The notes beneath the pieces were generated by a model that was given only the letters and a program-made list of their open reading frames with translations, was not told the origin of the DNA and searched no databases. From Opitutaceae bacterium (GTDB lineage: Bacteria > Verrucomicrobiota > Verrucomicrobiia > Opitutales > Opitutaceae), in NCBI GenBank assembly GCA_027485815.1, contig JAIXQE010000220.1, forward strand, positions 1 through 64,000: a stretch of 64,000 nucleotides of DNA, written 5' to 3'. Both the position numbers and the translations under genes were made by a program. This document shows positions 5,441 to 40,820 of the stretch, piece by piece (the first letter of the stretch is position 1; every line of letters begins with the position of its first letter).

Positions 5441-5587
5441 GGCGGGCCCTAAGGGGGGCAGGCCGTTAATCGTTACCCGCCCGTTCAGGGTTCGACCCCT
5501 TCCCGCGGGGATTCTAAGATCTTCTCGCGATCCGCAGCTCCTATCGGATCCTATCACGGCCCCCACCCCGAAACTGCGCCGGCCATC

Positions 5588-26087: not shown

Positions 26088-29000
26088 TCAGAAGCGCTTG
26101 GAGACCTGGCCGTAGAAAGCGCGACCGCGGGGGTTGGTGCCGGCCCCGCGCTGGTAACCCGTGTCCGAGTCCGCGAGGGGCGGATCCGTGTCGCGGACGT
26201 TGTTCACCCCAAGGCGGGCGGAGAGGTTGGACCAGAGCGAGCCGCGGCGGGACGGGAACGCGTAGTTCACGTAGGCGTTGTGAAGGACGTGGCTCGAGAC
26301 GAGGTAGCGGTAGCGCCGCACCCCGCCGGAATCGACGTAGGAGGAAATGTAGTCCGGCCGGCCCAGCGCGGCGTAGACCGCCTCGGTGGTGGCGGTGCCG
26401 GTGTCGACGTAGGGACCGTAGTAACTGGTGAACCAGCCGGCGCTCCAGCCCTCGTGGCGCCAGGAGAGGCCGATATTGCCGCGGAAGCGGGTGCGTCCGT
26501 CGCGGTTGATGTTGCCGATCTTCGGGGCGCCCGGATCCGCCTGCGTGTCGAATTGAAGGAGGTAGGAGGCGTCCCCGCGCACCGTGCCTTGGCCGAGGCG
26601 GGTGCGGGGCAGGCGGTATTCGAACCCGAAGTCGAGGCCCTCGGCCTCGCGGCCGGCCAGGTTGACGTAGTCCGTGACCACGGAACGGATCCCGCCGACG
26701 GGCGCGCGGCGTTCCTGCGGCGGGCGCGTGGCGTTGAAGGCCGCGAAGGCCTCGATGTCCGCGGGGGTGACCGGGTCGCGCACGACCTTCGGGTTGCCGA
26801 CGTACCCCGCGGTGCCGCTACCGAGGTCGATGCGCTCGATCGGCGTGCCGGCGGCGAGGGCCCGGCGGACGGCGCCGTCCAGGAGCTCCTCGTCCTGGAG
26901 CAGTTGCGTGGTGCCGCTGACCGCCGAGATGACGTCCCGCTGGTGGATCCGCCAGTAGTCGACGGTGATCGTGAGGGCCTTGAGGAAGGGCGGCGTGAAG
27001 CCGGTGCCGAGCGTGAGGGAGCGGGCGGTCTCGGGCTGGAGGTTGGCGTTGCCCTGGCGGAAGACCACTGGCACCGCGTTGGAGTCGCGATTGAGGCCCG
27101 TGACCTCGGCGCGGTAAACGTCGTTGAAGGTCGAGCCGGAGCGCTGGAGCGGGGTGACGTTGGACTGGACGAGGTTCGGGGCGCGGAACGAGGCGGCGCT
27201 GGTGGAGCGGACGAGGAGCCACTCGTTCGGCCGGTAGTTGAGGCCGACCTTGGGCTTCACGGTGTCACCGAAGTCGGAAAAGCGTTCGGCGCGGCCGGCG
27301 AGGGAGACCTCGAGGGAGCGGGCGAAGCGGCTGCGGTTCGCCTTGCCGACGACGGGGAACAGGGCCTCGGCGAAGACCGAGGCGTTGGTGCGGGACTTGT
27401 AGAGGTTCGGGTTGGGGCTGAGCGCGATGAAGTCGTTCTCGTTGGGTCCGAAGAAGAGGTTGTTGGGGTCGGAGGCGTTGCCGTTGAACGGCGCGTCGGC
27501 GGGGTTGAAGGCGGCGTAGGGCGGGCGCCAGTCCTTGTAGTCCTCCCAGCGGAACTCGGCACCGAGGGCGAGGCCGACCGCGCCGCCCCAGAAGCGGTCG
27601 AGCACGCGGCCGTTGAGCTTCAGGTCCCAGCTCGCGAGCTGGGTGCGCCCCTCGCGGACAAAGTCATCGTAGAGCGAGGCGGTGAGCGCCTCGGGGTTGC
27701 GGTAGGCGCGGTCGACGACGAGCAGGTAGGGGTTCGTCGTGCTGGCCTGGGGCACGAGGCGGAAGGTATAATTGAAGGGGTTGAACGCCTTGGCCGGATC
27801 GGAGGTGGTGAGGGCGGCCCGGAGGCGGCTTTCGCGCACCGCGAAGTTCTCAACGTCGCGGGTGAAGTTGCGCCCGTACATCACGCCCGACTCCCATTCC
27901 CAGCCGGCGGCGAACTTACCCCGCAGGCCGCCGACGAGCCGGATCGCGGTCGAATTCACGGTGATGCGGCGGGGCTGGAAGTCGCGCGGGATCACGCCGA
28001 CCCCGCCGAGGAACTGGAGCGCGGCGGGGGCGCCGGCGAGCCGCGGGGTGCCATCGGCATTGGGGCGGCCGAGCGGATCGTAGAACCGGCTGCCGAAGGG
28101 ATTGAACGGATGGTCGGCGCCGACGTAGATGTTATGGTCCGTGCTCGAATCGAAGGCGGACGGCAGGCGGCCGGTGATGGACTTCGCCCGGTAGGTGAGG
28201 ACCTCACCGAAGGCCTCCAGGTCGCGACCCAGCCGGTGGCGCAGCACGGCGGTCAGGTTGAAGCGATCCGTGCGCGGGAGGATCGGTTTGAAGTCGTTGG
28301 GGTTCTGGTACCAGTTGACCGTGAAGTCGTCGATGTTGTGTGAGGGCAGCGTTTGCCGGAAGCCGACGTTCCCGTCGGCGAGCGGGATGAGGTAGAACGT
28401 GCCGTTGGTCGCAAGCGTGGCGCTGGTGGAGCCGGAGGTCGTGATGATACCGCGGTTACCCTCCGGCCGCGCGCCGATGAAGCTGAAGTTGGGACCCCAG
28501 GTGCCACGGACGAAGCCGCCGTAGTAGCTCGAATCGGTGCTCAGGCGGTTGTCGAAATCGTTGTCGCGGACCACGGTGCCGGCGGCGTCGAGGAGCGGCA
28601 GGCCGTCCCACGGCGGCGGGACGTTGCGGACCACGCGGACGTCCTGGTTGCGGGAGAACTTGCGCTGGTTGAGCCAGAGGAAATCCCGGTGGTAGTAGTC
28701 GAGCGTCACCAGCAGGTTGCTCCGGCCGCGGTTGAAATTCCGGCCCTCCGTGATCTCGAGATTCCAGTCGTTGCCGCCGCCGCGCTGGGTGACGCTGGCG
28801 CGGGCGCGCACCGAGAGGCCGTCGAAGCGGGTGCGGGTGATCGAGTTGACCACGCCGGCCGCGGCGTCGGTGCCGTAGATCGCGGAGGCACCGTCGCGGA
28901 GGACCTCCACGCGCGAAATGGCGGCCATCGGGAGGTTGTTGACGTTGGTGGAGAGCGAGGGGACGGAGCTCTCGGCCATGCTGATCGGGTGCGGCGGCAG

Positions 29001-29372
29001 GCGGCGGCCGTTGAGCAGCACGAGCGTATTGCCCGAACCGAGCCCGCGCAGGTTGATCGTGGAATTGTCGCCGCGGGCGTCCGCCCCGAGGGTGTTGCCC
29101 TCGTCGAGCGTGATGGGGCCGCCGATCGAGAACGTGTCGAAGAGCTCGGCCGCGGTGGGCACGCCCCGCAGGTCGAGGTCCTCGAGGTTCATCACCGTGA
29201 CGGGGAGGATCTTCTCCTCGTCCAGCCGGCGGATGTTGGTGCCGGTGACGGTGAACGCCTCGAGTTGCACGGCCTCGGCGGCGGGCGGAGCCGGCGGGCG
29301 GGGGGCCGGGGCGGGTTGGCCCGGGAGCAAGGCCGGCAGGAACAGCAGCGGGAGGAGACGGGAAGAGCGCAT
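26088..29372 (-). CDS. TonB-dependent outer-membrane receptor
   Basis: 1094 aa; signal peptide (MRSSRLLPLLFLPALLPG) then a Pro-rich linker and a TonB-box-like AFTVTGTNIRR (about 40-52). Unlike the other receptors here it lacks the carboxypeptidase-like domain. The plug (about 50-180) has INLRGLGSGNTLVLLNGRR and ISRVEVLRDGASAIYGTDA, the classic segments; the barrel ends FYGQVSKRF with terminal Phe. It heads the leftward arm of the divergon, so its ligand should be what the sulfatases, phosphoesterase and GH84 route process. The 125 bases before it are shared with the rightward operon. Confidence 0.92.
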   Translation of the reverse strand: MRSSRLLPLLFLPALLPGQPAPAPRPPAPPAAEAVQLEAFTVTGTNIRRLDEEKILPVTVMNLEDLDLRGVPTAAELFDTFSIGGPITLDEGNTLGADARGDNSTINLRGLGSGNTLVLLNGRRLPPHPISMAESSVPSLSTNVNNLPMAAISRVEVLRDGASAIYGTDAAAGVVNSITRTRFDGLSVRARASVTQRGGGNDWNLEITEGRNFNRGRSNLLVTLDYYHRDFLWLNQRKFSRNQDVRVVRNVPPPWDGLPLLDAAGTVVRDNDFDNRLSTDSSYYGGFVRGTWGPNFSFIGARPEGNRGIITTSGSTSATLATNGTFYLIPLADGNVGFRQTLPSHNIDDFTVNWYQNPNDFKPILPRTDRFNLTAVLRHRLGRDLEAFGEVLTYRAKSITGRLPSAFDSSTDHNIYVGADHPFNPFGSRFYDPLGRPNADGTPRLAGAPAALQFLGGVGVIPRDFQPRRITVNSTAIRLVGGLRGKFAAGWEWESGVMYGRNFTRDVENFAVRESRLRAALTTSDPAKAFNPFNYTFRLVPQASTTNPYLLVVDRAYRNPEALTASLYDDFVREGRTQLASWDLKLNGRVLDRFWGGAVGLALGAEFRWEDYKDWRPPYAAFNPADAPFNGNASDPNNLFFGPNENDFIALSPNPNLYKSRTNASVFAEALFPVVGKANRSRFARSLEVSLAGRAERFSDFGDTVKPKVGLNYRPNEWLLVRSTSAASFRAPNLVQSNVTPLQRSGSTFNDVYRAEVTGLNRDSNAVPVVFRQGNANLQPETARSLTLGTGFTPPFLKALTITVDYWRIHQRDVISAVSGTTQLLQDEELLDGAVRRALAAGTPIERIDLGSGTAGYVGNPKVVRDPVTPADIEAFAAFNATRPPQERRAPVGGIRSVVTDYVNLAGREAEGLDFGFEYRLPRTRLGQGTVRGDASYLLQFDTQADPGAPKIGNINRDGRTRFRGNIGLSWRHEGWSAGWFTSYYGPYVDTGTATTEAVYAALGRPDYISSYVDSGGVRRYRYLVSSHVLHNAYVNYAFPSRRGSLWSNLSARLGVNNVRDTDPPLADSDTGYQRGAGTNPRGRAFYGQVSKRF

Positions 29373-29451: not shown

Positions 29452-29497
29452 CAGTCGCGCGCCACCGGTGCCTGCTCGCGGGGTCGGCCGTACCCCC

Positions 29498-31624
29498 ATG
29501 CGCCCCTCCCCCGCCCGCCTGCTCCGCCGCTGCCTGCCCTGCTTGATGACCCTCACCGCATGGGCGCAACCCATCCCGCAGGAGTTCCGGCAGGAGGTGG
29601 CCCTGCACCACGCGGGGGAGCCAGGCCGGCCCGCGGGCGCCGTCACGGCCCTCGCACTGGGGCCGGCGGGCGAACCGCGGGCGCGGGTCGGGGACGCATG
29701 GTTCGCGCGCGAGGGCGGCAAGTGGACGATGCTGGCCGCGCCTCCGGTCCGGCCGGAGCCGCCGGATCGCCCGCCGCCCGGGGAGCCGCGGCAAATTGCG
29801 CGGGGGCCGGACGGCACCTGGTGGGCGGGGACGGGCGCGGGATTGTGGCGCCGGACGCCGGAGGGCTGGCGGGAAGAGGTGGTGCTGGACGGCGCGGGGC
29901 GGCGCTGGGCCGTCGGCGAGGTGCGGGCGGTGGCGGTCGACTCCGCCGGCCAACCCTGGTTCGCGGTGTCCGCCGGCGTGGGGGTCCGGACCGCGGGCGG
30001 CTGGCGGTTCTTCGAGGGCAAGGACGGCCTGCCGTGGAACGGTTTCACCTGCGCGGCGGCGGGGCCCGGCGGCGAGGTCTGGTTCGGCACGGACCGCGGG
30101 GCGATCCGCTGGGACGGCCGGGAATTCCACTACCGCCAGGGACCGCGCTGGCTGCCGGATGACCGCATCGGGGCGATCGCGGTGGGCCCGGACGGCACCG
30201 CGTGGTTCGCGACCGCAGCGGGCGTGGGCGGCATCGCGCGCCGACCGATGACCCTCGCGGCGAAGGCGGAGTTTTACGAGGAGGAGATTGACCGTCACAT
30301 CCGGCGCACCCCGTTCGGCTTCGTGGCGGAGGCTCCCCTGCGGGTCCCGGGCGACCGCGCGAGCGCAGGCCGCCACGACTCGGACAACGACGGCCTGTGG
30401 ACCGCAATGTACGGCGCGGGGCAATGCTTCGCCTACGCCGCCACCGGCGATCCGCGCGCCAAGGCGCGGGCGGACGCCGTGTTCGCGGCCCTGCGCTTCC
30501 TCCAGACCGTGACCCAGGGCGGACCGGTCGCGCCGCCCCCCGGGTTTGTCGCCCGCACGATCCTGCCAGGGGACGGCCCGGACCCCAACGCCGGCCAGGC
30601 GGAGCGCGACCGCGCCATGCAGGGGCGGGACGCGTTGTGGAAGCGTCTGGAGCCGCGCTGGCCGCGCAGCGTGGACGGCCGCTGGTACTGGAAGGCGGAC
30701 ACCAGCAGCGACGAACTGGACGGCCATTACTTCTTCTATCCGCTCTACCACGACCTGGTGGCGCGGACCCCGGAGGAAAAGGCGGCCGTGCGGGAGGTGA
30801 TCCGCGCGCTCACCGACCACCTGCTGGCGCATGGCTTCACCCTGCGGGACCACGACGGGCGCCCCACGCGCTGGGGCATGTACGCCCCGGAGCACCTGAA
30901 CGCCGACCCGCAGTGGGTCGTCGAGCGGGGCCTGAACTCGCTGAGCCTGCTCGCCTACCTCAGCGCGGCGGCGCACGTCACGGGTGAAGGCCGCTACACC
31001 GCGGCGGCGGCGGAGCTGATCACGCGGCACGGCTACGCCCAGAACCTGTTCCACCCGAAGTTCCAGACCGGCCCGGGCTCGGGCAACCAGTCCGACGACG
31101 AGATGGCGTTCATGTGCTTCTACACCCTGCTCCGGACCTCCCGCGACGAGGCCCTGCAGGAGCGCGCGCTGACCGCCTGGCACGTCTACTGGGGCCTGGA
31201 GGCGGCGGAGCGAAATCCCTTCTTCGCCTTCGCCTACGCGGCGCACGCCGAGGGGCGGACCCTGCGCAACCTCTGGGGCGAGTTCCCGATCTCGCCCGCC
31301 GCGGGCTGGCGGGAGGACGCCGCCGCGACCCTGCGGGGCTTCCCCCTCGACCGCCTCAACTGGCCGCTGCGCAACGCCCATCGCCTCGACGTGGTGCCGC
31401 TGCCCGCGGTGCAGGCGCGCGACCCGCACGAGCCGGGCAACGAAGGGCGAGGTCACGGGCGGGACGGACGCGTGCTGCCGGTGGAGAACCGGCATTTCAA
31501 CCATTGGAACACGGATCCCTGGCAACTCGACTACGCCGGCCGCGGGGACGTGCTGGGCGCCGGAACGGTCTTCCTGCTGCCGTACTACCTCGGACTGCAC
31601 CACGGATACGTGGCGAAGCCGTGA
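29498..31624 (+). CDS. Exported beta-propeller plus alpha/alpha-toroid-like protein of unknown activity
   Basis: 708 aa from the ATG at 29498; a GTG ten codons upstream is possible but the signal peptide (MRPSPARLLRRCLPCLMTLTAWA) starts here. The N-terminal third (about 35-255) has repeated propeller blades of the two-component-regulator type (GPDGTWWAGTGAGLWRR, GPGGEVWFGTDRGAIRWDG). From about 260 on the sequence is helical with Trp- and His-rich loops (HDSDNDGLWTAMYGAG, SSDELDGHYFFYPLYHDL, NRHFNHWNTDPWQLDY), like an alpha/alpha-toroid glycan-active or lyase-like domain. First gene of the overlapping nine-gene operon. Its enzymatic nature is an inference. Confidence 0.7.
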   Translation: MRPSPARLLRRCLPCLMTLTAWAQPIPQEFRQEVALHHAGEPGRPAGAVTALALGPAGEPRARVGDAWFAREGGKWTMLAAPPVRPEPPDRPPPGEPRQIARGPDGTWWAGTGAGLWRRTPEGWREEVVLDGAGRRWAVGEVRAVAVDSAGQPWFAVSAGVGVRTAGGWRFFEGKDGLPWNGFTCAAAGPGGEVWFGTDRGAIRWDGREFHYRQGPRWLPDDRIGAIAVGPDGTAWFATAAGVGGIARRPMTLAAKAEFYEEEIDRHIRRTPFGFVAEAPLRVPGDRASAGRHDSDNDGLWTAMYGAGQCFAYAATGDPRAKARADAVFAALRFLQTVTQGGPVAPPPGFVARTILPGDGPDPNAGQAERDRAMQGRDALWKRLEPRWPRSVDGRWYWKADTSSDELDGHYFFYPLYHDLVARTPEEKAAVREVIRALTDHLLAHGFTLRDHDGRPTRWGMYAPEHLNADPQWVVERGLNSLSLLAYLSAAAHVTGEGRYTAAAAELITRHGYAQNLFHPKFQTGPGSGNQSDDEMAFMCFYTLLRTSRDEALQERALTAWHVYWGLEAAERNPFFAFAYAAHAEGRTLRNLWGEFPISPAAGWREDAAATLRGFPLDRLNWPLRNAHRLDVVPLPAVQARDPHEPGNEGRGHGRDGRVLPVENRHFNHWNTDPWQLDYAGRGDVLGAGTVFLLPYYLGLHHGYVAKP

Positions 31625-32871
31625 GCGCTACCCTGCCCCCCTCCGGCGCACGCTGGTTGCGCGGCCTCCAGGCCGTCGGGGAAAACCCGGCCCTCGCGGC
31701 GATCCGCGCGGGGATGGTGGCGCTCGTCCCGCTGACCATCCTGGGCGGCCTCTTCCTCGTGTTGACGCACCTGCCCCTGCCCGGCGGGGCGGCCCTGCCG
31801 GAGGCGTGGAAGCCGGTGCTGGAGATCCCCGTCACGGCCACGTTCGGGCTCCTGGCCGTGTTCGCCTGCTTCGCCATCGCCCACGATTTCGCGGGCCGGC
31901 TGGGACTCGATGCCGCGGGCTCGGCGCTGCTCGCCACGCCCTGTTTCCTGCTCCTCCAGGTGAAGCCGGGGGCGCCGGGCCTCGACCCGGCCGCGCTCGG
32001 CTCCGGGGGACTCTTCACGGCCATCGTCGTGGCGCTGGTCGCGGTGCGGGTGAAGGCATGGTTCGTCGCGCGCGGGCTCGTGATCCGGCTCCCAGGCGAG
32101 GTGCCGGCGGTCGTGGCGGAGTCCTTCCTCTCCCTCGTTCCGCTGCTGGCGCTCGCGTCCGGGTTCTGGGCGCTGCGCTTCCTGCTCGGCCTAGACCTCA
32201 ACGCGGCCGTGCAGGCCGCCTTTGCGCCGCTGGTCTTCGCGCTGGACACGCTGCCCGGCATCCTCGTCTACGCGCTGCTCGTGACGCTGCTCTGGTCCCT
32301 GGGGGTGAACGGCGACAACACCCTCGACGCGGTGGTCGCCCCCGTGTTCCTGCAATTCCTCGCGGCGAACGTGACCGCGCTGGCCGAGGGGCGACCGCCG
32401 CCGCACATCACCGCCAACGGCTTCTTCTCGACCTTCGTGAACGTCGGCGGCACCGGGGCCACGCTCGGGTTGGCGCTGGTGCTCTGGCGTTCGAGCGACC
32501 CCGGCCTGCGCCAGGTCGCCCGCGTCTCGCTGCCCACGCAGGTTTTCCAGATCAACGAGCCCATTTTCTTCGGGGTGCCGATCGTGCTCAACCCGCTGCT
32601 GATGGTCCCGTACATCCTGAACGCGCTGCTGCTCACGGCCGGCACCTATGGCCTGCTGGCCGCGGGCCTGATCGCCCGCCCCGTGCTGAACATCCCGTGG
32701 ACGACCCCGCCCGTGATCGGCCATTATCTCGTGACGGGGGGCGACTGGCGAGCCGCGGTCTGGGGCGTGATCTCCCTCGCGCTGGCGACGCTCGTGTACC
32801 TGCCGTTCGCCCGCGCACTGGAGCGGAGCCGCCGCGCGGCCGCGGCCCGGCCTGAGGAGTCTGAACGATGA
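31621..32871 (+). CDS. PTS EIIC-type sugar permease (cellobiose/diacetylchitobiose-like), apparently orphan
   Basis: 416 aa from a GTG at 31621 that overlaps the previous stop by 4 bases. About ten hydrophobic helices. Recognisable EIIC landmarks: SLGVNGDNTLDAVVAPVF (about 230-247, the H-G-x-N-like sugar site shows GVNGDN), QINEPIFFGVPIVLNPLLM (about 305-323) and the PWTTPPVIGHYLVTGGDW end. No EIIA, EIIB, EI or HPr gene is in the window, so phosphorylation-coupled transport is uncertain; it may work as a facilitator or use distant partners. It lies directly before GH84, pointing to N-acetylhexosamine saccharides. Confidence 0.87.
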   Translation: MSATLPPSGARWLRGLQAVGENPALAAIRAGMVALVPLTILGGLFLVLTHLPLPGGAALPEAWKPVLEIPVTATFGLLAVFACFAIAHDFAGRLGLDAAGSALLATPCFLLLQVKPGAPGLDPAALGSGGLFTAIVVALVAVRVKAWFVARGLVIRLPGEVPAVVAESFLSLVPLLALASGFWALRFLLGLDLNAAVQAAFAPLVFALDTLPGILVYALLVTLLWSLGVNGDNTLDAVVAPVFLQFLAANVTALAEGRPPPHITANGFFSTFVNVGGTGATLGLALVLWRSSDPGLRQVARVSLPTQVFQINEPIFFGVPIVLNPLLMVPYILNALLLTAGTYGLLAAGLIARPVLNIPWTTPPVIGHYLVTGGDWRAAVWGVISLALATLVYLPFARALERSRRAAAARPEESER

Positions 32872-34220
32872 GCCGCGCGCCGTTCCTCGCGGGAGTGGTG
32901 GAGGGTTTCTACGGCCGGCCGTGGACGCCCGCGCAGCGCCACGCCCTGGTGCGGCGGCTCGGCGCCCTCGGCCTCAACACCTACCTCTATGCGCCGAAGG
33001 ACGACCTGCGCCACCGTGCCCGTTGGCGCGAGCCGTACCCGGCGGGGGAGGCCACCGAGTTGCGAGACCTGATCGCCGCGTGCAGCGCGGCGGGCGTGGA
33101 ATTCGTGTACGCGCTCGCGCCGGGACTGGACCCGGACTTCGCGCAACCGGCCGGGCTCGCCGCGTTGGCGGCGAAGGCAGAGCAACTCGCCGCGTTGGGC
33201 GCGCGGCACTTCGCGGTCCTGTTCGACGACATCATCGCCGCGCCCGCCTCCGGCCATCTCGGGGCGACCGAGCACGATGCGGCGCCTCAGGTCGTCTTCG
33301 CCCACCAGCTGCGGGAGCGACTGCGCCGGCGGGACCCCGACGCGCGGCTCCTGTTCTGCCCCACCCCCTACTGCGGACGGATGGCGGGCGACCCGGCCGC
33401 TTCGCGCTACCTGCAGCACCTGGGCGCGCACCTCGATCCGGCGGTGGACATTCTCTGGACCGGGCCGGAGATCATCTCGGAAACGATCACCCCGGCGGAC
33501 CTGCGGGAGCTCACGCGCGTCCTGCGGCGCCCCCCGCTGATCTGGGACAATCTCTTCGCCAATGACTACGACCTGCGACGCCTTTACCTCGGGCCCTACG
33601 CAGGGCGGCCGGCGGAGCTGCGTGGAGCCGTCACCGGGGTCCTGCTGAATCCGAACTGCGAGTTCGCCGCCCACCGCCTCGCGCTGGAGACCTTCGCGGA
33701 GTGGGTCGCCCGGGACGATTACGAGCCGGGACGCGCCCACGCCGCGGCGCGCGAGCGGTGGCGCGCGGACTGGCGGTGCCTCGACGCCGTCGGGGGCGCC
33801 GCGCCACTGCCGGCCGACCTGTTCGCGTTGCTCTGCGACTGCCTGCACCTGCCCTTCGCCCACGGCCCGCTCGCCGAAGCCTGGCACGCCGACGTCACGG
33901 CGGCGTTGCAGGGGGACGAGACCGCCGCGACCCGCGCCCGGGCGGGCTGCGCCCGGGTCGCGACGCTCTTCGAGCACCTGACGCGCCTCGAGGACCGCGA
34001 GTTGCTCCACACCGTGTATCGCCTCGCGTGGGAACTGAAGGAGGAGGCGGGTCTGATCGCGGGTTATCTGGACTGGCGGGAGCGGGGACCGGCCGTCGGC
34101 GCCGCGTTCTCCTCCGCGGAGCATCGTCCGCGCACCTACCGCGGCGGCCTCGTGGCGGATCTGCAGCGCCTGCTGCCGATGACGCCGGACGGCCGCTTCA
34201 CCCCGGCCCCACCGTCATGA
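32868..34220 (+). CDS. GH84 beta-N-acetylglucosaminidase (O-GlcNAcase-like)
   Basis: 450 aa, starting in a 4-base overlap. Seen: the GH84 opening LAGVVEGFYGRPWTPAQR (residues 7-24), LNTYLYAPKDD (36-46), and the catalytic Asp pair FAVLFDDI (Asp120, Asp121) that in the family assists and anchors the substrate acetamido group in the oxazoline mechanism. Also FCPTPYCG and LWTGPEIISETITP, and IWDNLFANDYD. No signal peptide, so it should act in the cytosol, as does animal O-GlcNAcase, unlike many secreted bacterial GH84 enzymes. The next gene encodes a GNAT resembling the animal enzyme's second domain. Substrate: GlcNAc conjugates brought in by the operon's transporters, or protein O-GlcNAc. Confidence 0.93.
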   Translation: MSRAPFLAGVVEGFYGRPWTPAQRHALVRRLGALGLNTYLYAPKDDLRHRARWREPYPAGEATELRDLIAACSAAGVEFVYALAPGLDPDFAQPAGLAALAAKAEQLAALGARHFAVLFDDIIAAPASGHLGATEHDAAPQVVFAHQLRERLRRRDPDARLLFCPTPYCGRMAGDPAASRYLQHLGAHLDPAVDILWTGPEIISETITPADLRELTRVLRRPPLIWDNLFANDYDLRRLYLGPYAGRPAELRGAVTGVLLNPNCEFAAHRLALETFAEWVARDDYEPGRAHAAARERWRADWRCLDAVGGAAPLPADLFALLCDCLHLPFAHGPLAEAWHADVTAALQGDETAATRARAGCARVATLFEHLTRLEDRELLHTVYRLAWELKEEAGLIAGYLDWRERGPAVGAAFSSAEHRPRTYRGGLVADLQRLLPMTPDGRFTPAPPS

Positions 34221-34843
34221 TCCCTCGGAAGCTCGATGCCTTCACGCTCCGGCTCGCGTTACCCCGCGATCGGGAGGCCTGCTATGCGGTGTGCCTTGGC
34301 ACGGGGGACAGCGGCCGCGATGCGACGCACCTCCACGCGGATCCGGAGGCACTGGGCCACGTGTACGTGGGAGCTTACCTGGCCTTCGAACCGCAATTGG
34401 CTCTGGTCCTTGAGGACAGCGCCGGCGTCTGCGGCTACGCGCTGGCGGTCGTGGACACGCGCGAATTCCAGCGCCGGTACGTTGAGGAATGGCTGCCGCC
34501 CCTGCGGGCGCTCCGGTCGGCGCCGTCCGGTCCTGCGGAACGATGGAGCCGGGACGAGCAGCTCTGGCACCTCTACCACCATCCGGAGCTGTTCGTGCCG
34601 GAGCCTTACGCGGACTATCCGTCGCACCTCCACCTTGACCTGCTGCCACGCGCGCAGGGGCGCGGCCTCGGACGGGCGATGATGGCGGAGCTGCTCGAGC
34701 GCTTGACCGCAAGGGGCGCGCCCGGCGTGCATCTCGCGATGGCGGCCGACAACCACCGCGCAGCGGCCTTCTACGCCAAACTGGGCTTCCGCGAGCTGGC
34801 CCGGGGCGGCGACGCGATTTACCTCGGCCGGAGGCTGCGATGA
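34217..34843 (+). CDS. GNAT acetyltransferase related to the C-terminal domain of animal O-GlcNAcase
   Basis: 208 aa, start ATG in a 4-base overlap with the GH84 gene. GNAT fold: RPRD-like N-terminus (LPRDREACYAVC), core LVLEDSAGVCGYALAVVD (about 64-81), a long helical insert with WLPPLRALR and HHPELFVPEPYADYPSHL, the acetyl-CoA loop AQGRGLGRAMM (about 146-156, intact Q/RxxGxG/A), then DNHRAAAFYAKLGF. From memory the core block and the insert resemble the pseudo-acetyltransferase domain of human O-GlcNAcase. The acetyl-CoA loop looks functional here. Likely substrate: an amino sugar or a protein. Confidence 0.9.
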   Translation: MIPRKLDAFTLRLALPRDREACYAVCLGTGDSGRDATHLHADPEALGHVYVGAYLAFEPQLALVLEDSAGVCGYALAVVDTREFQRRYVEEWLPPLRALRSAPSGPAERWSRDEQLWHLYHHPELFVPEPYADYPSHLHLDLLPRAQGRGLGRAMMAELLERLTARGAPGVHLAMAADNHRAAAFYAKLGFRELARGGDAIYLGRRLR

Positions 34844-35766
34844 AAGCGCCCCTTCACCCCGCGCCGATGGTTTCCCCCGCCACGCATTCCTCCCCGGTCG
34901 GCCTCATTGGCCTCGGCCTGCTGGGCAGCGCGCTCGCGGACCGCCTGCGCGGCGGCAGCCTGCCGGTCCTCGGCTACGACCTCGATCCGGCGCGCCGCGA
35001 GGCCCTCGGCGGCGCCGGGGGCGAAGTCGCCCGCGATGCGGCGGAGGTTTTTGGCCGTTGCCACCGCGTCCTCCTGAGCCTGCCGACCCACGTGGAGGTG
35101 GAAGCGGTGCTGGCCGCGGCCGAAGGCACGGTGCGGTCAGGCCATGTCATCGTCGACACCACGACGGGCGACCCGGAGGCCACGGCCGCGCTCGCCGCCA
35201 AGCTTGCGACCCGGGGGGTGGCGTACCTCGACGCCACCGTTTCCGGCAGCAGTGCCCAGCTGCGGGAGGGTTCAGCCGTGCTGATGGTGGGTGGGGACGC
35301 CGCGGCCTTCGCGGCCTGCGGGGATCTGTTCGCCCCGCTCGGCCGCGCCACCTTCCACTGCGGTGGCGCGGGCGCCGGGGCGCGGATGAAGCTGGTCACG
35401 AACGTGGTCCTCGGGCTGAACCGCGCGGCGCTCGCCGAAGGCCTCGCCCTCGCGCAGGGACTGGGGCTCGACGCCCGCCAGGCGCTCGCCGTGATGCAGG
35501 GCGGTCCCGCCTACTCCCGGATCATGGATCGCAAGGGCGAGCGGATGCTGTTCGGCAACTTCGTCCCGGAGGCCCGCCTTTCCCAACACCTCAAGGACGT
35601 GCGGCTGATCCTCGAGCAGGGCGAAGCCGCGGGCCTGCCGATGCCGCTCAGCCGCGCGCACCGCTCGGTCCTCGAGGCGGCCGAAAAGGCGGGCCTCGGC
35701 GCGCTCGACAACAGCGCCATCATCCGCGTCCTCACCGCCCGCGCGGGCCCTCCTGAAGCCCGATGA
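34840..35766 (+). CDS. NAD(P)-dependent 3-hydroxyisobutyrate-dehydrogenase-family oxidoreductase
   Basis: 308 aa. Cytosolic beta-hydroxyacid dehydrogenase. Rossmann motif VGLIGLGLLGSALADRL (about 20-36), substrate-binding signature LDATVSGSSAQLREGSAVLMVGG (in place of the usual DAPVSGG), and the catalytic Lys segment GARMKLVTNVVLGLN (about 180-195). Members reduce or oxidise 3-hydroxyisobutyrate, tartronate semialdehyde or similar C3-C4 acids, which suits the end of a sugar-acid route. The ATG at 34840 overlaps the previous stop by 4 bases; an ATG nine codons later would also give a complete domain. Confidence 0.9.
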   Translation: MKAPLHPAPMVSPATHSSPVGLIGLGLLGSALADRLRGGSLPVLGYDLDPARREALGGAGGEVARDAAEVFGRCHRVLLSLPTHVEVEAVLAAAEGTVRSGHVIVDTTTGDPEATAALAAKLATRGVAYLDATVSGSSAQLREGSAVLMVGGDAAAFAACGDLFAPLGRATFHCGGAGAGARMKLVTNVVLGLNRAALAEGLALAQGLGLDARQALAVMQGGPAYSRIMDRKGERMLFGNFVPEARLSQHLKDVRLILEQGEAAGLPMPLSRAHRSVLEAAEKAGLGALDNSAIIRVLTARAGPPEAR

Positions 35767-37016
35767 CCGCCGCGCCCCTTTCCCCCCGCGCCCGCTACGC
35801 GGTCCTCGCCGCCGCCTTCGGCGCCCTGCTGTTCGACGGCCTGGAGCTCGGCCTGATGCCGCTGGTATCCCTGTCGGTTTCACAGTCCCTGCTCGGCGCC
35901 ACCTACACGCCCACCCTTGGCGGCGACTGGTTCGCCCGCTACACGGCGGCCCTGATGGGCGGGGCGGCCCTCGGGGGCATTCTGCTCGGGGCGCTCGGCG
36001 ACCGGATCGGGCGCACGCGCGCCATGGGCGTCAGCATCCTGTTCTACTCGGTCTTCGCCGGCGTGGGCGCCTGGGTGACGACGCAGGAGCAGATGCTCGC
36101 GCTGCGTTTTGCCGTGGGCCTCGGCGTGGGTGGCGTCTGGCCCAACGCGGTCGCGTTGGTGGCGGAGTCGTGGCCCGACAAGTCGCGTCCGGTGGTGGCC
36201 GGCCTGATGGGTGCCGCGATCAACTCCGGGATTTTGCTTTTGTCGCAGGTCGCGCAGTTCCGTCCGGTGACCCCGGACTCGTGGCGGTGGCTGTTCTCCC
36301 TTGCCGGCGCCCCGGCCGTGCTCGGCGTCGCGGTGCTGCTGTTCCTGCCGGAGTCGCCGACCTGGCTGGCGACCCGCGTCCGGGCCGGGCAACCGAAGCC
36401 GCCGGCGCCGCTGCGCGAGTTATTTCGCCCTCCGCTGTTGCGCGTCACGCTCGTCGGGATCCTGCTCGGTTCGATCCCGCTCGTCGGGGCGTGGGCCGCG
36501 AGCAAGTGGATGATCCCGTGGGCGGACGAGATCGGCCGGACCGCACAGTCCAACTACAAGGCGATGACGCAGGGCTGGTGGGCCAAGGGCGCGATCCTCG
36601 GGAGCCTGCTCGGCGCGCAGATCGCCGCGCTGCTCGGCCGGCGCGTCTCCTATTTCCTGATCAGCGTGGGCGCCTTCGGCCTCACCTGGGCGATGTTCCA
36701 GCTGACGGCACCGCTGCAGCCGAGTTTCCTGCCGATCGTCTTCGCGCAGGGCCTGGTCGCGACGCTCTTCTTCGGGTGGCTGCCGCTGTACCTGCCCGAG
36801 CTTTTCCCGACCGCGGTGCGCGCGACGGGCAGCGGGATCTCCTACAACGTCGGCCGGTTCGCCACCGCCCTCGGCGTGCTCGCCGCGGGCGCGATGTTCA
36901 CCGCCCTGGGCGGCAGCTACGCCCGCGTCGGCGCGGCCGCCTCCTTCATCTACGCGGCGGGCATCCTCGTCATCTGGCTCGCCCCCGAGACCAAGCGCCA
37001 ATCCCTCGCGAAATGA
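35763..37016 (+). CDS. MFS transporter (sugar/organic-acid type)
   Basis: 417 aa with twelve hydrophobic segments. Between helices 2 and 3 stands GDRIGRTRAMGVSILFYS, the A-motif of the major facilitator superfamily; also FLPESPTWL at the end of helix 6 and a long loop in the middle. The sequence AVGLGVGGVWPNAVALVAESWP resembles aromatic-acid and sugar-acid porters. Position in the operon between a hydroxyacid dehydrogenase and a DUF6807 gene suggests import of a sugar or sugar acid, or export of a product. Four-base overlaps on both sides. Confidence 0.9.
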   Translation: MTAAPLSPRARYAVLAAAFGALLFDGLELGLMPLVSLSVSQSLLGATYTPTLGGDWFARYTAALMGGAALGGILLGALGDRIGRTRAMGVSILFYSVFAGVGAWVTTQEQMLALRFAVGLGVGGVWPNAVALVAESWPDKSRPVVAGLMGAAINSGILLLSQVAQFRPVTPDSWRWLFSLAGAPAVLGVAVLLFLPESPTWLATRVRAGQPKPPAPLRELFRPPLLRVTLVGILLGSIPLVGAWAASKWMIPWADEIGRTAQSNYKAMTQGWWAKGAILGSLLGAQIAALLGRRVSYFLISVGAFGLTWAMFQLTAPLQPSFLPIVFAQGLVATLFFGWLPLYLPELFPTAVRATGSGISYNVGRFATALGVLAAGAMFTALGGSYARVGAAASFIYAAGILVIWLAPETKRQSLAK

Positions 37017-37999
37017 AACCCCTCCGCCGCCTGCTCGCCTCCCTCGCCGGGTTGGCCGCTGCCACCGCCGCCGGCGCCGGCGAGCCCGTCACATTCACCC
37101 GCCTCCCCGACCGCGTCCGCATCGAGATCGGCGGCCGGCACTTCTCGGACTACCTCCACGCGGGTTGGCCGAAGCCTTGCCTCTACCCGATCCTGGATGC
37201 GGACGGCACCGCGTACACCCGCGATTTCCCGTTCAGGAAAAACCCGGCCGAAGTGCCGGACCATGACTGGCATCGCGGCGTCTGGTTCGCGCACGGCGCG
37301 GTCAACGGCCACGACCTCTGGCGGGAACTGCCCGAGCGGAAGACCGGCCGCATCCGCCTGGAGCGCATTGTGGAGACGCGCGATGGCCCGACCGGGCTGC
37401 TGCGCGTCCGCAGCCTCTGGGAAACGGCGGACGGAAAGCCGCTGCTCACGGACGAGACCACCCTGCGCATCGCGCGGTCGGGTGCGGTGACCCGCCTCGA
37501 CTACGACGTCCGCCTCCTCGCGACCCACGGGCCGGTGACCCTCGGCGACACCGAGGAGGGCACGATGGCGGTGCGGGTGAACGAGGCCTTGCGGGTGACC
37601 CACGGCAAGGGCGCGACCAAACGCCCCGGCACCGGGCGCCTCGTGAATGCGAAGGGCGACGCCGGCGTTCCCGCGTGGGGCAAGCGCGCCGCATGGGCCT
37701 CTTACAGCGGCCCCCTGCCCGACGGGCGGGTGATCGGGGTGGCCCTGCTGGAGCATCCGGGCAACTTCCGGCACCCGACGTGGTGGCACGCGCGCGATTA
37801 CGGCCTGCTTTCGGCGAACCCGTTTGGCCGGCACGACTTCGAGAAATTGCAGGACCAGCCGAACGCCGGGGACCACGTGATCCCCGCCGGCGGCGAGCTG
37901 ACGCTGCGCTACCGGCTCGTGTTCCACCGCGGGGACGATCGTTCCGCCGGCCTCGCCGCCGAGTTCGCCGCCTACGCGGCCGAGGGGGTGGCGCGATGA
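37013..37999 (+). CDS. DUF6807 (PmoA-family) exported protein
   Basis: 328 aa from the ATG at 37013, in a 4-base overlap, with signal peptide (LLASLAGLAAATAAGAGE). Landmarks of the family: GRHFSDYLHAGWPKPCLYPILDADG (here DYLHAG and KPCLYPI), FRKNPAEVPDHDWHRGVWFAHGAVNGHDLW with the His pair, and GVALLEHPGNFRHPTWWHARDYGLLSANPFG. The fold is thought to be a beta-sandwich related to aldose-epimerase-like proteins. The family is very common next to Gfo/Idh/MocA oxidoreductases and sulfatases in Planctomycetota and Verrucomicrobiota, as here. Biochemical activity is not established. Confidence 0.88.
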   Translation: MKPLRRLLASLAGLAAATAAGAGEPVTFTRLPDRVRIEIGGRHFSDYLHAGWPKPCLYPILDADGTAYTRDFPFRKNPAEVPDHDWHRGVWFAHGAVNGHDLWRELPERKTGRIRLERIVETRDGPTGLLRVRSLWETADGKPLLTDETTLRIARSGAVTRLDYDVRLLATHGPVTLGDTEEGTMAVRVNEALRVTHGKGATKRPGTGRLVNAKGDAGVPAWGKRAAWASYSGPLPDGRVIGVALLEHPGNFRHPTWWHARDYGLLSANPFGRHDFEKLQDQPNAGDHVIPAGGELTLRYRLVFHRGDDRSAGLAAEFAAYAAEGVAR

Positions 38000-39372
38000 G
38001 ACGCCTGGCGCTCCTCCTGCTCCTCGCCGCCACCCTCCACGCGGCGCGGGACCCGCGGCAGAACATCGTGTTCATCCTCGCGGACGACCTCGGCTACGGG
38101 GACATCGGCCCGTTCGGGCAGAAGCTGATCCGCACCCCGAACCTCGACCGCCTCGCCGCCGAGGGCACCGCCTTCACGCACTACTACGCGGGAGGCTCCG
38201 TCTGCTCGCCCACCCGGAGCGTCCTGATGACGGGCCAGCATACCGGCCACACCCGCATCCGGGGCAACCACGGCCGCGCCGGGCTCGCGCGCGTCCCGCT
38301 CCGCGCCGAGGACCAGACCGTCGCCGAACTGCTGCGGAATCAGGATTACGCCACGGCGATGATCGGGAAGTGGGGCCTCGGCGAGCCCGGGACGGAGGGT
38401 ACCCCCGACCGGCAGGGTTTCGACCGCTGGTTCGGCTACCTCAACAACGACCTCGCGGAGTTCCATTTCCCGGAAAAGCTCTGGCGCGACGGCAAGGAGA
38501 TCACGCTGCCGGGCAACGCCGGCGGCGCGCGGGGCCAGTACTCGCACGACCTGATGACCGAGGAGGCCCTGGCCTTCCTCGAAGCGCGTCACCAGCGCCC
38601 GTTCTTCCTCTACCTTGCCTACACCGTGCCGCACTCGCTGCTGGAGGCGCCCGAGGACGCGTTGGCCGAGTACCGCGGCCGCTTTCCCGAGCCGCCCGCT
38701 GGTCAAGGCGGCAAGAACGACGTCCCTTTTCCCCGCGCCACCTTCGCCGCGATGGTGGGCCGGCTGGACCGCGACGTGGGCCGGATCCTCGACCGGATCC
38801 GCGCCCTCGGGATCGACCGGCACACCGTGGTATTCTTCTGTTCCGACAACGGCGCCCCGGCCCGCGCCGGGATCTCGGACTTCTTCGGCAGCACCGCGGG
38901 TTTCCGCGGACACAAGGGCTCGCTCTTCGAGGGCGGGATCCGCGCGCCGATGATCGTCCGCTGGCCCGGGCAGATCCCGGCCGGTCGGCGGAGCAGTTAC
39001 CCTTGGGGCGGCTGGGATTTCCTGCCCACCGCCCTCGCCCTCGCGGGCATCACCCAGCCCGAGCCCGGCGTCGACGGCCTCAACGTGCTGCCCGCGCTCC
39101 GCGGCAAGGAGACGGAGCGGCCGGGCCACCTTTACTGGGAACACCACCAGCGGGAGTTCTCCCAAGCGGTGCGCGAAGGCAGGCTCAAGGCGATCCGCGA
39201 GCGGCCGGGCGCCCCGGTGCTGGTGTTCGACGTCGTCCGCGATCCGGGCGAGACCCGGGATCTCGCCGCCAAGGAGCCCGGTTTCGTCGCGCGGGCGGAG
39301 GAACTGTTCCGGACCTCGCGCACCGAGAGTGAACCCTGGCCCGTCGCCTCCCGAACCTCCCCCAGCCGATGA
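37996..39372 (+). CDS. Exported arylsulfatase-type sulfatase
   Basis: 458 aa from the ATG at 37996 (4-base overlap), signal peptide at about 1-17. All landmarks of a formylglycine sulfatase are present: metal site FILADDLGYGD (Asp30, Asp31), catalytic Cys70 in CSPTRSVLMTGQ, IGKWGLGEPG, FFCSDNGAP for the second Asp-Asn metal pair, and KGSLFEGGIRAPMIVRWPG. It therefore needs a maturation enzyme; the FGE-like protein at 57308-58378 lacks the catalytic cysteines. Likely removes sulfate from glycans such as GlcNAc-6-sulfate, given the GH84 gene in the same operon. Confidence 0.93.
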   Translation: MRRLALLLLLAATLHAARDPRQNIVFILADDLGYGDIGPFGQKLIRTPNLDRLAAEGTAFTHYYAGGSVCSPTRSVLMTGQHTGHTRIRGNHGRAGLARVPLRAEDQTVAELLRNQDYATAMIGKWGLGEPGTEGTPDRQGFDRWFGYLNNDLAEFHFPEKLWRDGKEITLPGNAGGARGQYSHDLMTEEALAFLEARHQRPFFLYLAYTVPHSLLEAPEDALAEYRGRFPEPPAGQGGKNDVPFPRATFAAMVGRLDRDVGRILDRIRALGIDRHTVVFFCSDNGAPARAGISDFFGSTAGFRGHKGSLFEGGIRAPMIVRWPGQIPAGRRSSYPWGGWDFLPTALALAGITQPEPGVDGLNVLPALRGKETERPGHLYWEHHQREFSQAVREGRLKAIRERPGAPVLVFDVVRDPGETRDLAAKEPGFVARAEELFRTSRTESEPWPVASRTSPSR

Positions 39373-40820
39373 AAACCCTGCCCCGCCGTGACTTCCTGCG
39401 CCGCGCGACCACCGGCGCCGCCCTAGCCTTTCCCGCCCTGCGCCTCGGCGCCGCGGGTTCCAACCAGGACATCCGGCTCGCGGTGATCGGGCTCGGCGGC
39501 AAGGGCCGCGGCCACGCGCGGATGCTGCTGAAGTTCCCCGGCGCCCGGCTGACCGCCCTGTGCGACGTCGACCCGCAGCGCCTCGCGGAACAGGTCGCGG
39601 CCGCGAAGGAGGCCGGCGTGACCGTCGCGGGCGCCACCGACCCGCGGCGCATCCTCGAGCGGGCGGACGTCGACGCCGTCGTCATCGCCACCCCGAACCA
39701 CTGGCACGCTGTCCTGACCGCCTGGGCCTGCCGCGCCGGCAAGGACGTCTACGTGGAGAAACCCGTTTCCCACAGCCTCGGCGAGGGCCCGCGGATGCTC
39801 GCGGCCGCAGAGCGGTACGGACGGATCGTGCAGTCGGGCACCCAGTACCGGTCCGACGAGGGCATCCGGGCGGCCACGGCCTGGATCCGCGAGGGGCATA
39901 TCGGCCGCCCGCGCGCGGCGCACGTCGCGTGGTACGAGTACCGGCCCGGCATCGGCCGCGCGGCCCCGCACCGCCCCGCGGGCCTCGATTATGACCTCTA
40001 CTGCGGCCCCGCGCCCGCGGATCCGCTCACGCGCCCGAAGCTGCATTACGACTGGCACTGGTTCTGGTCGACCGGCGACGGGGACCTCGGCAACAGCGGC
40101 GTGCACCCGATCGACGCCTGCCGCTTCATGGCCGGGCTCACCGGCCTGCCCCGGCGCGTGCGCTGCCTCGGCGGCCGCTTCGGGGTCGACGACGCCGCCG
40201 AGACGCCCAACACCCAGCTGACGCTCGTCGACTACCCGGGCCTGCCGATGCTGGTGGAGAACCGCAACCTGCCCGCCAAGGCGGGCCAGAAGGCGATGGA
40301 CGCGTTCCGCGGGATTCGCGAGGGCTTTGCGCTCGACTGCGAGGGCGGCTCCTTCGTGGGCCTGAAGGGCGGCGGCGTGATTTACGACCGCGAAGGCAAG
40401 CGCCTGCGCCAGTTCCCCGGGGAAGGCGGAGGACGCCATTTGGCGAACTTCCTCGACGCGGTGCGTTCGCGGCGCGTCGCCGACCTGAACGCGCCGCTGG
40501 CGGAAGGCCACGCGTCCTCCGCCGTCTGCCACCTCGGCAACCTCTCGTGGCGGCTCGGGCGCGAGGACTCGCTGGCCGCCTGCCACGAGGCGGTCCGTGC
40601 CCACGCTGGCGCGGCGGAAGTCGTCGATCAGTTGGCGGGGCACCTGCGGGCGAACCAGCTCGATCTGGGTCAGGCGCGATTCCGCATCGGACCGTGGCTG
40701 GAGATCGCGCCGGAAACCGGTGCGCTCACGACGGTCGAGGGCGCCACCACGGCCGAACTCGCGGCTGCCCGGCGACTCGCCGAGGGCAGTTGGCGCGCGC
40801 CCTACGGCTTCGAGGCCTAG
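39369..40820 (+). CDS. Tat-exported Gfo/Idh/MocA-family oxidoreductase
   Basis: 483 aa with a twin-arginine signal (PRRDFLRRATTGAALAFPAL, Arg6-Arg7), so the folded protein with bound NAD(P) is exported. Rossmann fold: RLAVIGLGGKGRGHARML (about 37-54), LCDVDP, IATPNHWHA, catalytic Lys in YVEKPVSHSLGEG (about 134-146), then GNSGVHPIDACRFM with the conserved GD/H-type segment. Members act on sugars and sugar glycosides; some exported ones are NAD-dependent glycosidases (GH109, e.g. alpha-N-acetylgalactosaminidase), which would suit this operon, though the GH109 assignment cannot be made by eye. Last gene of the nine-gene operon. Confidence 0.9.
   Translation: MKTLPRRDFLRRATTGAALAFPALRLGAAGSNQDIRLAVIGLGGKGRGHARMLLKFPGARLTALCDVDPQRLAEQVAAAKEAGVTVAGATDPRRILERADVDAVVIATPNHWHAVLTAWACRAGKDVYVEKPVSHSLGEGPRMLAAAERYGRIVQSGTQYRSDEGIRAATAWIREGHIGRPRAAHVAWYEYRPGIGRAAPHRPAGLDYDLYCGPAPADPLTRPKLHYDWHWFWSTGDGDLGNSGVHPIDACRFMAGLTGLPRRVRCLGGRFGVDDAAETPNTQLTLVDYPGLPMLVENRNLPAKAGQKAMDAFRGIREGFALDCEGGSFVGLKGGGVIYDREGKRLRQFPGEGGGRHLANFLDAVRSRRVADLNAPLAEGHASSAVCHLGNLSWRLGREDSLAACHEAVRAHAGAAEVVDQLAGHLRANQLDLGQARFRIGPWLEIAPETGALTTVEGATTAELAAARRLAEGSWRAPYGFEA

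Follow-up and report, generated by a model that had tools for sequence, protein, structure and literature searches.

The window analysed here, a stretch of 64,000 nucleotides (nt) from an Opitutaceae bacterium (contig JAIXQE010000220.1, positions 1 to 64,000), carries two overlapping genes: one for a family GH84 hydrolase of the O-GlcNAcase (OGA) type and one for a GNAT acetyltransferase that resembles the C-terminal domain of animal OGA. We tentatively read this pair as a bacterial OGA split in two, lying in an operon for the import and breakdown of a saccharide that contains amino sugar; the GNAT would acetylate glucosamine (GlcN) and the GH84 enzyme would then cleave, a reading we regard as a serious possibility, a little short of probable. 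In Oceanicola granulosus, the OgOGA gene is immediately followed by the OgpAT gene, and the likeness of this order to that of the human domains was reported in 2013 (PMC3814719). The two-gene arrangement is thus already published, and the window pair is a further example. Our additions are natural fusions of the two genes, an EIIC gene without EIIB, and the amino-sugar gene contexts of the pair.

Two proteins of the OGA type

A preliminary description of the window, made from its sequence, had given the coordinates of the pair, catalytic Asp120-Asp121, no signal peptide and a 4-nt overlap, all of which were exact on re-reading (Table 1). Pfam PF07555 matched the GH84 protein at 4.6e-78 (263 bits, cut-off 25). 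Residues 7-444 matched PDB 2xsa (1.3e-95) in an alignment that includes the stalk, and the protein also matched the 916-residue O-GlcNAcase chain 5m7r (6.3e-88); stalk-domain chains were matched separately, with 5uhk_B at 5.7e-10. We take 2xsa to be OgOGA of O. granulosus and 5m7r to be human OGA, and by sequence match these are the best solved relatives, in that order. Asp120-Asp121 aligned with human Asp174-Asp175, and 18 of 18 checked active-site or nearby positions were identical to human OGA (human 66-69, 98, 99, 174, 175, 215, 217, 219, 278-280, 284-286 and 313, a set that partly reflects our own assumption of which residues matter). There is no room for a signal peptide because the barrel match begins at about residue 6. 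The gene is under purifying selection (dN/dS 0.18 at 83% identity to genome G007) and is the only GH84 match in its own genome. By these matches the protein is of the OGA type, and it is predicted to hydrolyze O-GlcNAc substrates.

The GNAT protein matched PDB 3zj0 at 4e-48, 4bmh at 3e-38 and, over its residues 8-205, residues 714-914 of 5m7r at 1e-24. The first two structures are OgpAT and SsAT, respectively (PMC3814719, PMC3919268). The YpeA/RimI match reached only about 1e-5 (RimI 3.5e-5) and was confined to the last third of the protein, and the NCBIfam rimI model TIGR01575 scored 33 bits, below its cut-off of 86.4. A generic RimI-type GNAT was therefore ruled out, the OgpAT, SsAT and OGA-domain matches being far stronger and full length, and the resemblance to the OGA C-terminal domain in the preliminary description is upheld. 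The acetyl-CoA loop (P-loop), which had been called intact, is so: it reads QGRGLG at residues 147-152 and fits [QR]xxGx[GA]. The candidate catalytic residue is His139, equivalent to OgpAT His135, and in the sequence alignment the protein continues through the region of the long OgpAT insert between strands 3 and 4. Thr29, Gly33, Tyr54, His139 and Asp141 are conserved in all 36 rows whose GNAT is linked or fused, and the gene is under purifying selection (dN/dS 0.12, 86% identity to G007).

With these active-site residues intact, the GNAT is a predicted acetyl-CoA binder. Acetyl-CoA binding has been demonstrated for both OgpAT and SsAT (PMC3814719, PMC3919268), and OgpAT binds acetyl-CoA while the human OGA domain does not (PMC3814719). 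Both bacterial proteins have narrow tunnels, that of SsAT suggesting a small acceptor (PMC3814719, PMC3919268); the OgpAT acceptor was termed "as yet unidentified" in 2013 (PMC3814719). GNATs often act on proteins, and the window GNAT might likewise acetylate a protein, such as GH84 or a transporter, as a regulator. Animal OGA employs its C-terminal domain in regulation (PMC12494797), and Ngs1, an unrelated GH3-GNAT protein, is a GlcNAc sensor with reported histone acetylation (PMC5063960). However, a modeled peptide clashes with the tunnel-like site of SsAT, where elongated substrates were not excluded (PMC3919268), and the insert region of SsAT/OgpAT-type GNATs aligns in the window GNAT. We therefore consider a protein acceptor unlikely.

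OgOGA and OgpAT (2xsa and 3zj0) are the top PDB matches of the two window proteins and share with them families, order, adjacency and an intact acetyl-CoA loop, with identities of 42% for GH84 and 46% for GNAT. The loci differ in that the O. granulosus genes (L178) stand with an ABC (ATP-binding cassette) importer and a BadF-type kinase, whereas the window has EIIC without EIIB and other operon genes. Animal OGA follows the order of the pair, with a GH84 barrel, then the stalk, then a GNAT-fold domain; however, it is one polypeptide whose GNAT half is unable to bind acetyl-CoA (PMC3814719, PMC12494797), whereas the window encodes two proteins with intact GNAT residues.

Distribution and linkage of the pair

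We compared 38 closely related genomes (the genome of the window, 24 of the same genus and 13 of the same order), counting GNAT matches over 200 bits as orthologues. GNAT orthologues occur in nine of the 38, and GH84 occurs in exactly those nine. The two genes adjoin on one strand in all nine, all of the same genus, so that the pair is present in 9 of 25 genus genomes and in none of the 13 others of the order. Ten further genomes gave only weaker GNAT matches (92 bits or less), for 19 of 38 in all at 0.001. A GNAT fragment in a same-genus genome without a GH84 match (L176; G012:C105, 7049-7288; about 54% identity over residues 76-155, with one TGA reported) is a probable relic of the gene.

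Wider draws scored only the best few candidates per genome (4 or 8 in the phylum draw). An even draw of 387 Verrucomicrobiota genomes contained 47 with some GH84 at 1e-20, and among the best candidates scored, a full-length OGA-type GH84 together with the GNAT was found in the genome of the window alone; in the other 46 the GH84 match was partial, at no more than 40% identity, and three others had a distant GNAT, at 75-81 bits. Conservation across Verrucomicrobiota, which the preliminary description had raised together with linkage in relatives, is thereby ruled out on the candidates scored, while the linkage is borne out (adjacent in nine of nine). Seven of 392 Planctomycetota genomes had a GH84 match, four of them full-length and of the OGA type, and in all four the GNAT follows directly or is fused. 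Among 111 Deinococcota genomes, seven had a near-full-length GH84, with the GNAT adjacent or fused in four (G431, G544, G547 and G548). In G564 and G477 the GNAT is located elsewhere (the G477 GH84 has 37% identity and an in-frame TAG), and in G546 the genome search gave no GNAT match. A match in G569 is cut by a contig end and was left unjudged. The distribution of GH84 and GNAT is patchy and their linkage strong.

Across 36 pair-bearing genomes, GH84 always precedes GNAT on the same strand, with aligned gaps of -12 to +192 nt; these genomes were picked because they carry the pair, which biases the frequency of adjacency among them, and Salinibacterium was left out. In Salinibacterium (L057, L058), genes for an ABC importer, GH84, a SIS protein and a BadF-type kinase form a cluster from which the GNAT gene is divergent. 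One could suppose that the GNAT serves to inactivate an aminoglycoside or some other toxic amine, as some GNATs do (PMC4680927), and that its linkage to GH84 is incidental. We find this scarcely credible, since adjacency in Verrucomicrobiota, Planctomycetota, Deinococcota and one alphaproteobacterium, plus two fusions, is hardly incidental.

GNATs also occur apart from GH84. Of 80 loci, 50 were searched genome-wide for GH84 (all except L021-L024, L026, L028-L032, L034-L037, L039, L040, L043-L046, L050 and L092-L100). Ten GNAT loci from Verrucomicrobiota, Planctomycetota, Deinococcota and unclassified genomes lack an adjacent GH84, and eight of these ten genomes have an OGA-type GH84 elsewhere. 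In the genome of L025, a second GNAT adjoins the GH84 found elsewhere (L166). The two genes are separate in the stretches read for L033, L038, L042 and L048, and probably also for L049, which is nearly identical in sequence to L048 and has a short GH84 contig; contig ends prevent judging the linkage for L027 and L051. A whole-genome search for L047 gave no GH84. At L041, a stalk remnant alone precedes the GNAT: an OGA stalk-like fragment without the barrel (5577-5957) lies between a phosphotriesterase-family gene and the GNAT, which groups with Verrucomicrobiota GNATs in a genome labeled Trueperaceae.

Natural fusions and the origin of animal OGA

In two metagenome-assembled genomes (MAGs), GH84 and GNAT lie in one frame with no stop between them. 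L052, from Planctomycetota, is an open reading frame (ORF) of 713 aa (2255-4396), and L053, from Trueperaceae, encodes 654 aa from its ATG (18-1982); the junctions come from MAG contigs, no reads being used. Both fusions have the domain order of the pair, the QGRG P-loop and an HxH motif, so that they resemble the window proteins in both halves but form one polypeptide. L053 aligned to human OGA in one continuous block, starting with the stalk, crossing the linker and reaching the GNAT domain's end. A check of 16 unfused pairs showed that the GH84 frame of each stops at the natural C-terminus. Two other loci come close to fusion, with the genes in the same frame and one stop (L028) or two stops (L200; G921:C169:62816-64909) between them. 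A search of openly licensed papers showed no report of a bacterial GH84-GNAT fusion, and the domains listed as fused to bacterial GH84s in the text seen of PMC12494797 include no acetyltransferase.

Trees were built from hand-chosen rows, 79 for GNAT and 58 for GH84, with duplicates from one genome dropped; L054-L100 include 44 more distant GNAT loci, and 20 of these entered the GNAT tree. Human is the only animal in the GH84 tree, and the eukaryotic OGAs are human and a partial Trichoplax sequence. Clades for topology tests were named after the trees had been seen, while the grouping of the fusions was a question from the start. On the GH84 tree, placing the two fusions together was rejected (P = 8e-5), as was placing human OGA with L053 (1.6e-5) or with L052 (1.1e-4), so that grouping of either fusion with human OGA fails at about 1e-4 or less. 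On the GNAT tree, the two fusions together were again rejected (P = 4e-4), and animals with either fusion were not (0.15 and 0.11). By these comparisons three separate fusion events are favored; a scenario of one early fusion and many later splits is formally still allowed.

Human GH84 falls within a 46-row clade (100/99) that includes 45 bacterial rows and stands against the secreted GH84s, and the GNATs of this clade are mostly separate neighboring genes. A placement of human outside the 45 bacterial OGA-type rows, as sister to them all, was not rejected (P = 0.235). In the GNAT tree, the animal domains are nested among bacterial sequences next to a Trueperaceae clade (96/84), on long branches, and none of three alternative placements was rejected; we therefore claim no closest bacterial relative for the animal domain. 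The suggestion in the preliminary description that the pair is an ancestral split form is compatible with these trees as far as the bacterial clade goes, and the placement of animals stays open to human as sister. A bacterial two-gene ancestor of animal OGA is plausible on this sequence evidence.

Gene contexts and a candidate acceptor

An importer lies in the examined stretch at 28 of the 36 pair loci (EIIC at 13, ABC at 10 and SSS at 5). Because the importer type changes around a fixed GH84-GNAT core, the pair is suggested to act on an imported substrate. The GNAT also adjoins EIIC at four loci without adjacent GH84 (L033, L038, L048 and L049). EIIB of the phosphotransferase system (PTS; PF02302) was found in none of 24 genomes, including that of the window and four other pair-bearing ones, in a search whose control was positive in 6 of 14 and which did not extend to EI and HPr. 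Phosphorylating PTS import of the substrate was therefore ruled out, and sugar probably enters through the EIIC without being phosphorylated, in a form that suits GH84.

BadF-type kinase and/or SIS genes occur at 16 of the 36 pair loci. The L051 kinase matched PDB hexokinase at 5e-32 and GlcNAc/MurNAc kinases at 3e-30 and 2e-20, and for the kinases of L051, L066, L211 and L212 the sole NCBIfam match was NagK_SO3507, under cut-off in all four. The SIS neighbor at L051 matches the structure of SCO4393, which is NagS (PMC12680351); we do not transfer the NagS activity to it because that source limits the dehydratase activity to Streptomycetaceae. Within the genus, all nine genomes that have the pair show a nagB match over cut-off, but so do 12 of the 16 that lack it, and the match therefore indicates capacity, not linkage. 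The match in the genome of the window (G000:C97:97290-98006) is part of an open frame some 1,147 codons long, and several same-genus genomes show the same; the frame may encode a larger protein that includes NagB.

A protein O-GlcNAc cycle, in which GT41 adds GlcNAc to cytosolic proteins and GH84 removes it, finds some encouragement in a GT41 homologue in the genome of the window (PF13844, 82 bits, in a 620-aa frame) and in the argument that Thermobaculum terrenum possesses such a system (PMC4683255). Against this, GT41 (OGT-type) matches within the genus are not associated with the pair (present in 6 of 9 genomes that have it and in 8 of 16 that lack it), the genome search gave none in the pair-bearing genomes G003, G007 and G010, and the pair is accompanied by importers instead. 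We judge the cycle very unlikely. The gene surroundings favor amino-sugar salvage; of the two substrates proposed in the preliminary description, imported GlcNAc conjugates are favored by the context at the 36 pair loci, and bacterial protein O-GlcNAc is unsupported.

In the proposed pathway, a sugar containing GlcNAc or GlcN would be taken in, here probably through the EIIC working without phosphorylation. The GNAT would move an acetyl group from acetyl-CoA onto the 2-amino group of glucosamine, either terminal on a saccharide or free, and GH84, which needs the 2-acetamido group as internal nucleophile, would then release terminal beta-GlcNAc. Released GlcNAc would pass to a sugar kinase and on to NagA/NagB. 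We infer the import of the substrate, glucosamine as acceptor and acetylation ahead of hydrolysis; acetylation followed by cleavage is suggested by context, intact active-site residues, the small-molecule-like acceptor tunnel of solved relatives, and analogy. The analogues are two. RmNag, a fungal GH3 GlcNAcase and glucosamine N-acetyltransferase, cleaves (GlcN)2 only with acetyl-CoA (PMC4680927). It embodies the same functional idea, to acetylate GlcN and hydrolyze, but is GH3 rather than GH84, and its tandem GNAT is not detectably related. The text seen of PMC4680927 mentions the OGA layout and does not propose such a role for OGA. Lysosomal HGSNAT acetylates terminal GlcN of heparan sulfate ahead of hydrolysis (PMC2757673), a prerequisite for the glycosidase like the one proposed here; it differs in being a membrane enzyme and in linkage and families. 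A search of openly licensed papers for a glucosamine acceptor of a bacterial OGA-linked acetyltransferase gave none beyond PMC3814719 and the analogues.

A fuller version of this proposal would make glucosamine the acceptor and the pair an exo-glucosaminidase that acetylates and then cleaves imported, partly deacetylated saccharides; bacterial fusions would have arisen at least twice independently of animals with both sites intact, and the dead animal OGA domain would be the relic of a sugar acetylase, not of a histone acetyltransferase. We hold this version more loosely, as possible though doubtful.

Several observations weigh against acetylation coupled to hydrolysis. No sequence feature found here identifies glucosamine as the acceptor, and RmNag is absent by name from the 33 PDB sequences matched by the GNAT at E up to 0.1. 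For free GlcN, acetylation followed by NagA deacetylation would seem a waste. In the window neither a kinase nor a SIS gene adjoins the pair, and 8 of the 36 pair loci, some on short contigs, have none of the importers looked for. More distant GNATs occur in 35 genomes of Actinobacteria, Proteobacteria and other groups, where GH84 matches in long frames were partial in 11 and absent from 24; the wider GNAT family therefore works also without OGA-type GH84. In plasmid searches, a distant GNAT was matched in 29 records and GH84 in one, and the two sets did not overlap; four of the GNAT loci and the one GH84 locus were opened. The Mesorhizobium and Agrobacterium loci, two of these four, show no amino-sugar gene, and the GH84 of Deinococcus psychrotolerans plasmid NZ_CP034185 (L213) has no GNAT in the region examined. 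The L213 GH84 (345780-347033; 51% identity over residues 3-283) stands beside a site-specific integrase, an oligopeptide ABC transporter and a GH3 gene.

The GNAT may instead act after or beside the hydrolase, acetylating free glucosamine or a similar small amine for GlcNAc-specific enzymes with no such coupling. On Falsirhodobacter algicola plasmid NZ_CP047292 (L212, 1-7202), a distant GNAT stands in a nag operon, after genes for a NagK-like kinase, a ROK regulator and a DMT transporter and before nagB (over cut-off) and nagA (whose best models stayed under cut-off); the region examined contains no GH84. A distant GNAT on a Duffyella plasmid has genes for a NagK-like kinase and a sugar ABC transporter close by, such kinases neighbor the GNAT at some other loci, and the more distant family members in genomes without full-length OGA-type GH84 fit this alternative as well. 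The Falsirhodobacter operon and the NagK-like kinases speak for the coupled reading too. However, the fixed order and adjacency to GH84 and the two natural fusions suggest coupling to the hydrolase, and we consider uncoupled salvage rather unlikely.

The EIIC gene overlaps GH84 by 4 nt, and further genes follow the GNAT on the same strand (Table 1). The protein encoded upstream of EIIC recurs ahead of the pair: 10 of the 36 pair-bearing genomes have it there, that of the window included, and in some relatives it lacks the propeller. Structure searches with its whole model matched the propeller. Its C-terminal half, modeled alone (mean pLDDT 69.9), resembles (alpha/alpha)6 carbohydrate enzymes, namely GH76, GH9 and 2-epimerases (VIA Z up to 17.2, rmsd 4.2, 303 aligned; best Foldseek E 0.0034), and a Pfam search with the barrel matched no family. 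The divergent TonB-dependent-receptor-like gene is retained in G007 and G010. Sulfatase genes recur close to GH84 at several loci (the window, L162, L169 and L174), hinting that the substrate is perhaps sulfated.

Table 1. The GH84-GNAT pair and neighboring genes, by position in the window
Feature	Coordinates	Strand	Remarks
TonB-dependent-receptor-like gene	26088..29372	-	Divergent; putative, labeled from sequence
Secreted-looking protein	29468..31624	+	N-terminal beta-propeller (Reg_prop), C-terminal (alpha/alpha)6-type barrel
EIIC, PTS lactose/cellobiose/chitobiose family	31621..32871	+	416 aa; GTG start; TIGR00410 over cut-off; 4-nt overlap with GH84
GH84, OGA-type beta-N-acetylglucosaminidase (predicted)	32868..34220	+	450 aa; ATG 32868, TGA 34218-34220; TIM barrel and C-terminal stalk
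ATGA overlap of GH84 stop and GNAT start	34217..34220	+	4 nt; from sequence
GNAT of OgpAT/SsAT/OGA C-terminal-domain family	34217..34843	+	208 aa; ATG 34217
3-Hydroxyisobutyrate/6-phosphogluconate dehydrogenase-type oxidoreductase	34840..35766	+	4-nt overlap with GNAT
MFS sugar transporter	35763..37016	+	
DUF6807 protein	37013..37999	+	Start is first Met of domain part; ORF 36170-37999
Sulfatase	37996..39372	+	Start is first Met of domain part; ORF 37675-39372
Gfo/Idh/MocA oxidoreductase	39369..40820	+	

The purpose of the animal OGA C-terminal domain is still called controversial (PMC12494797). The gene contexts name a testable acceptor, glucosamine, for an OGA-linked acetyltransferase. The L052 and L053 fusions, as predicted from their sequences, are single proteins that unite the hydrolase with an apparently intact acetyltransferase. 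Repeated fusion of the pair is thus suggested, and the animal architecture is not necessarily an invention peculiar to eukaryotes.

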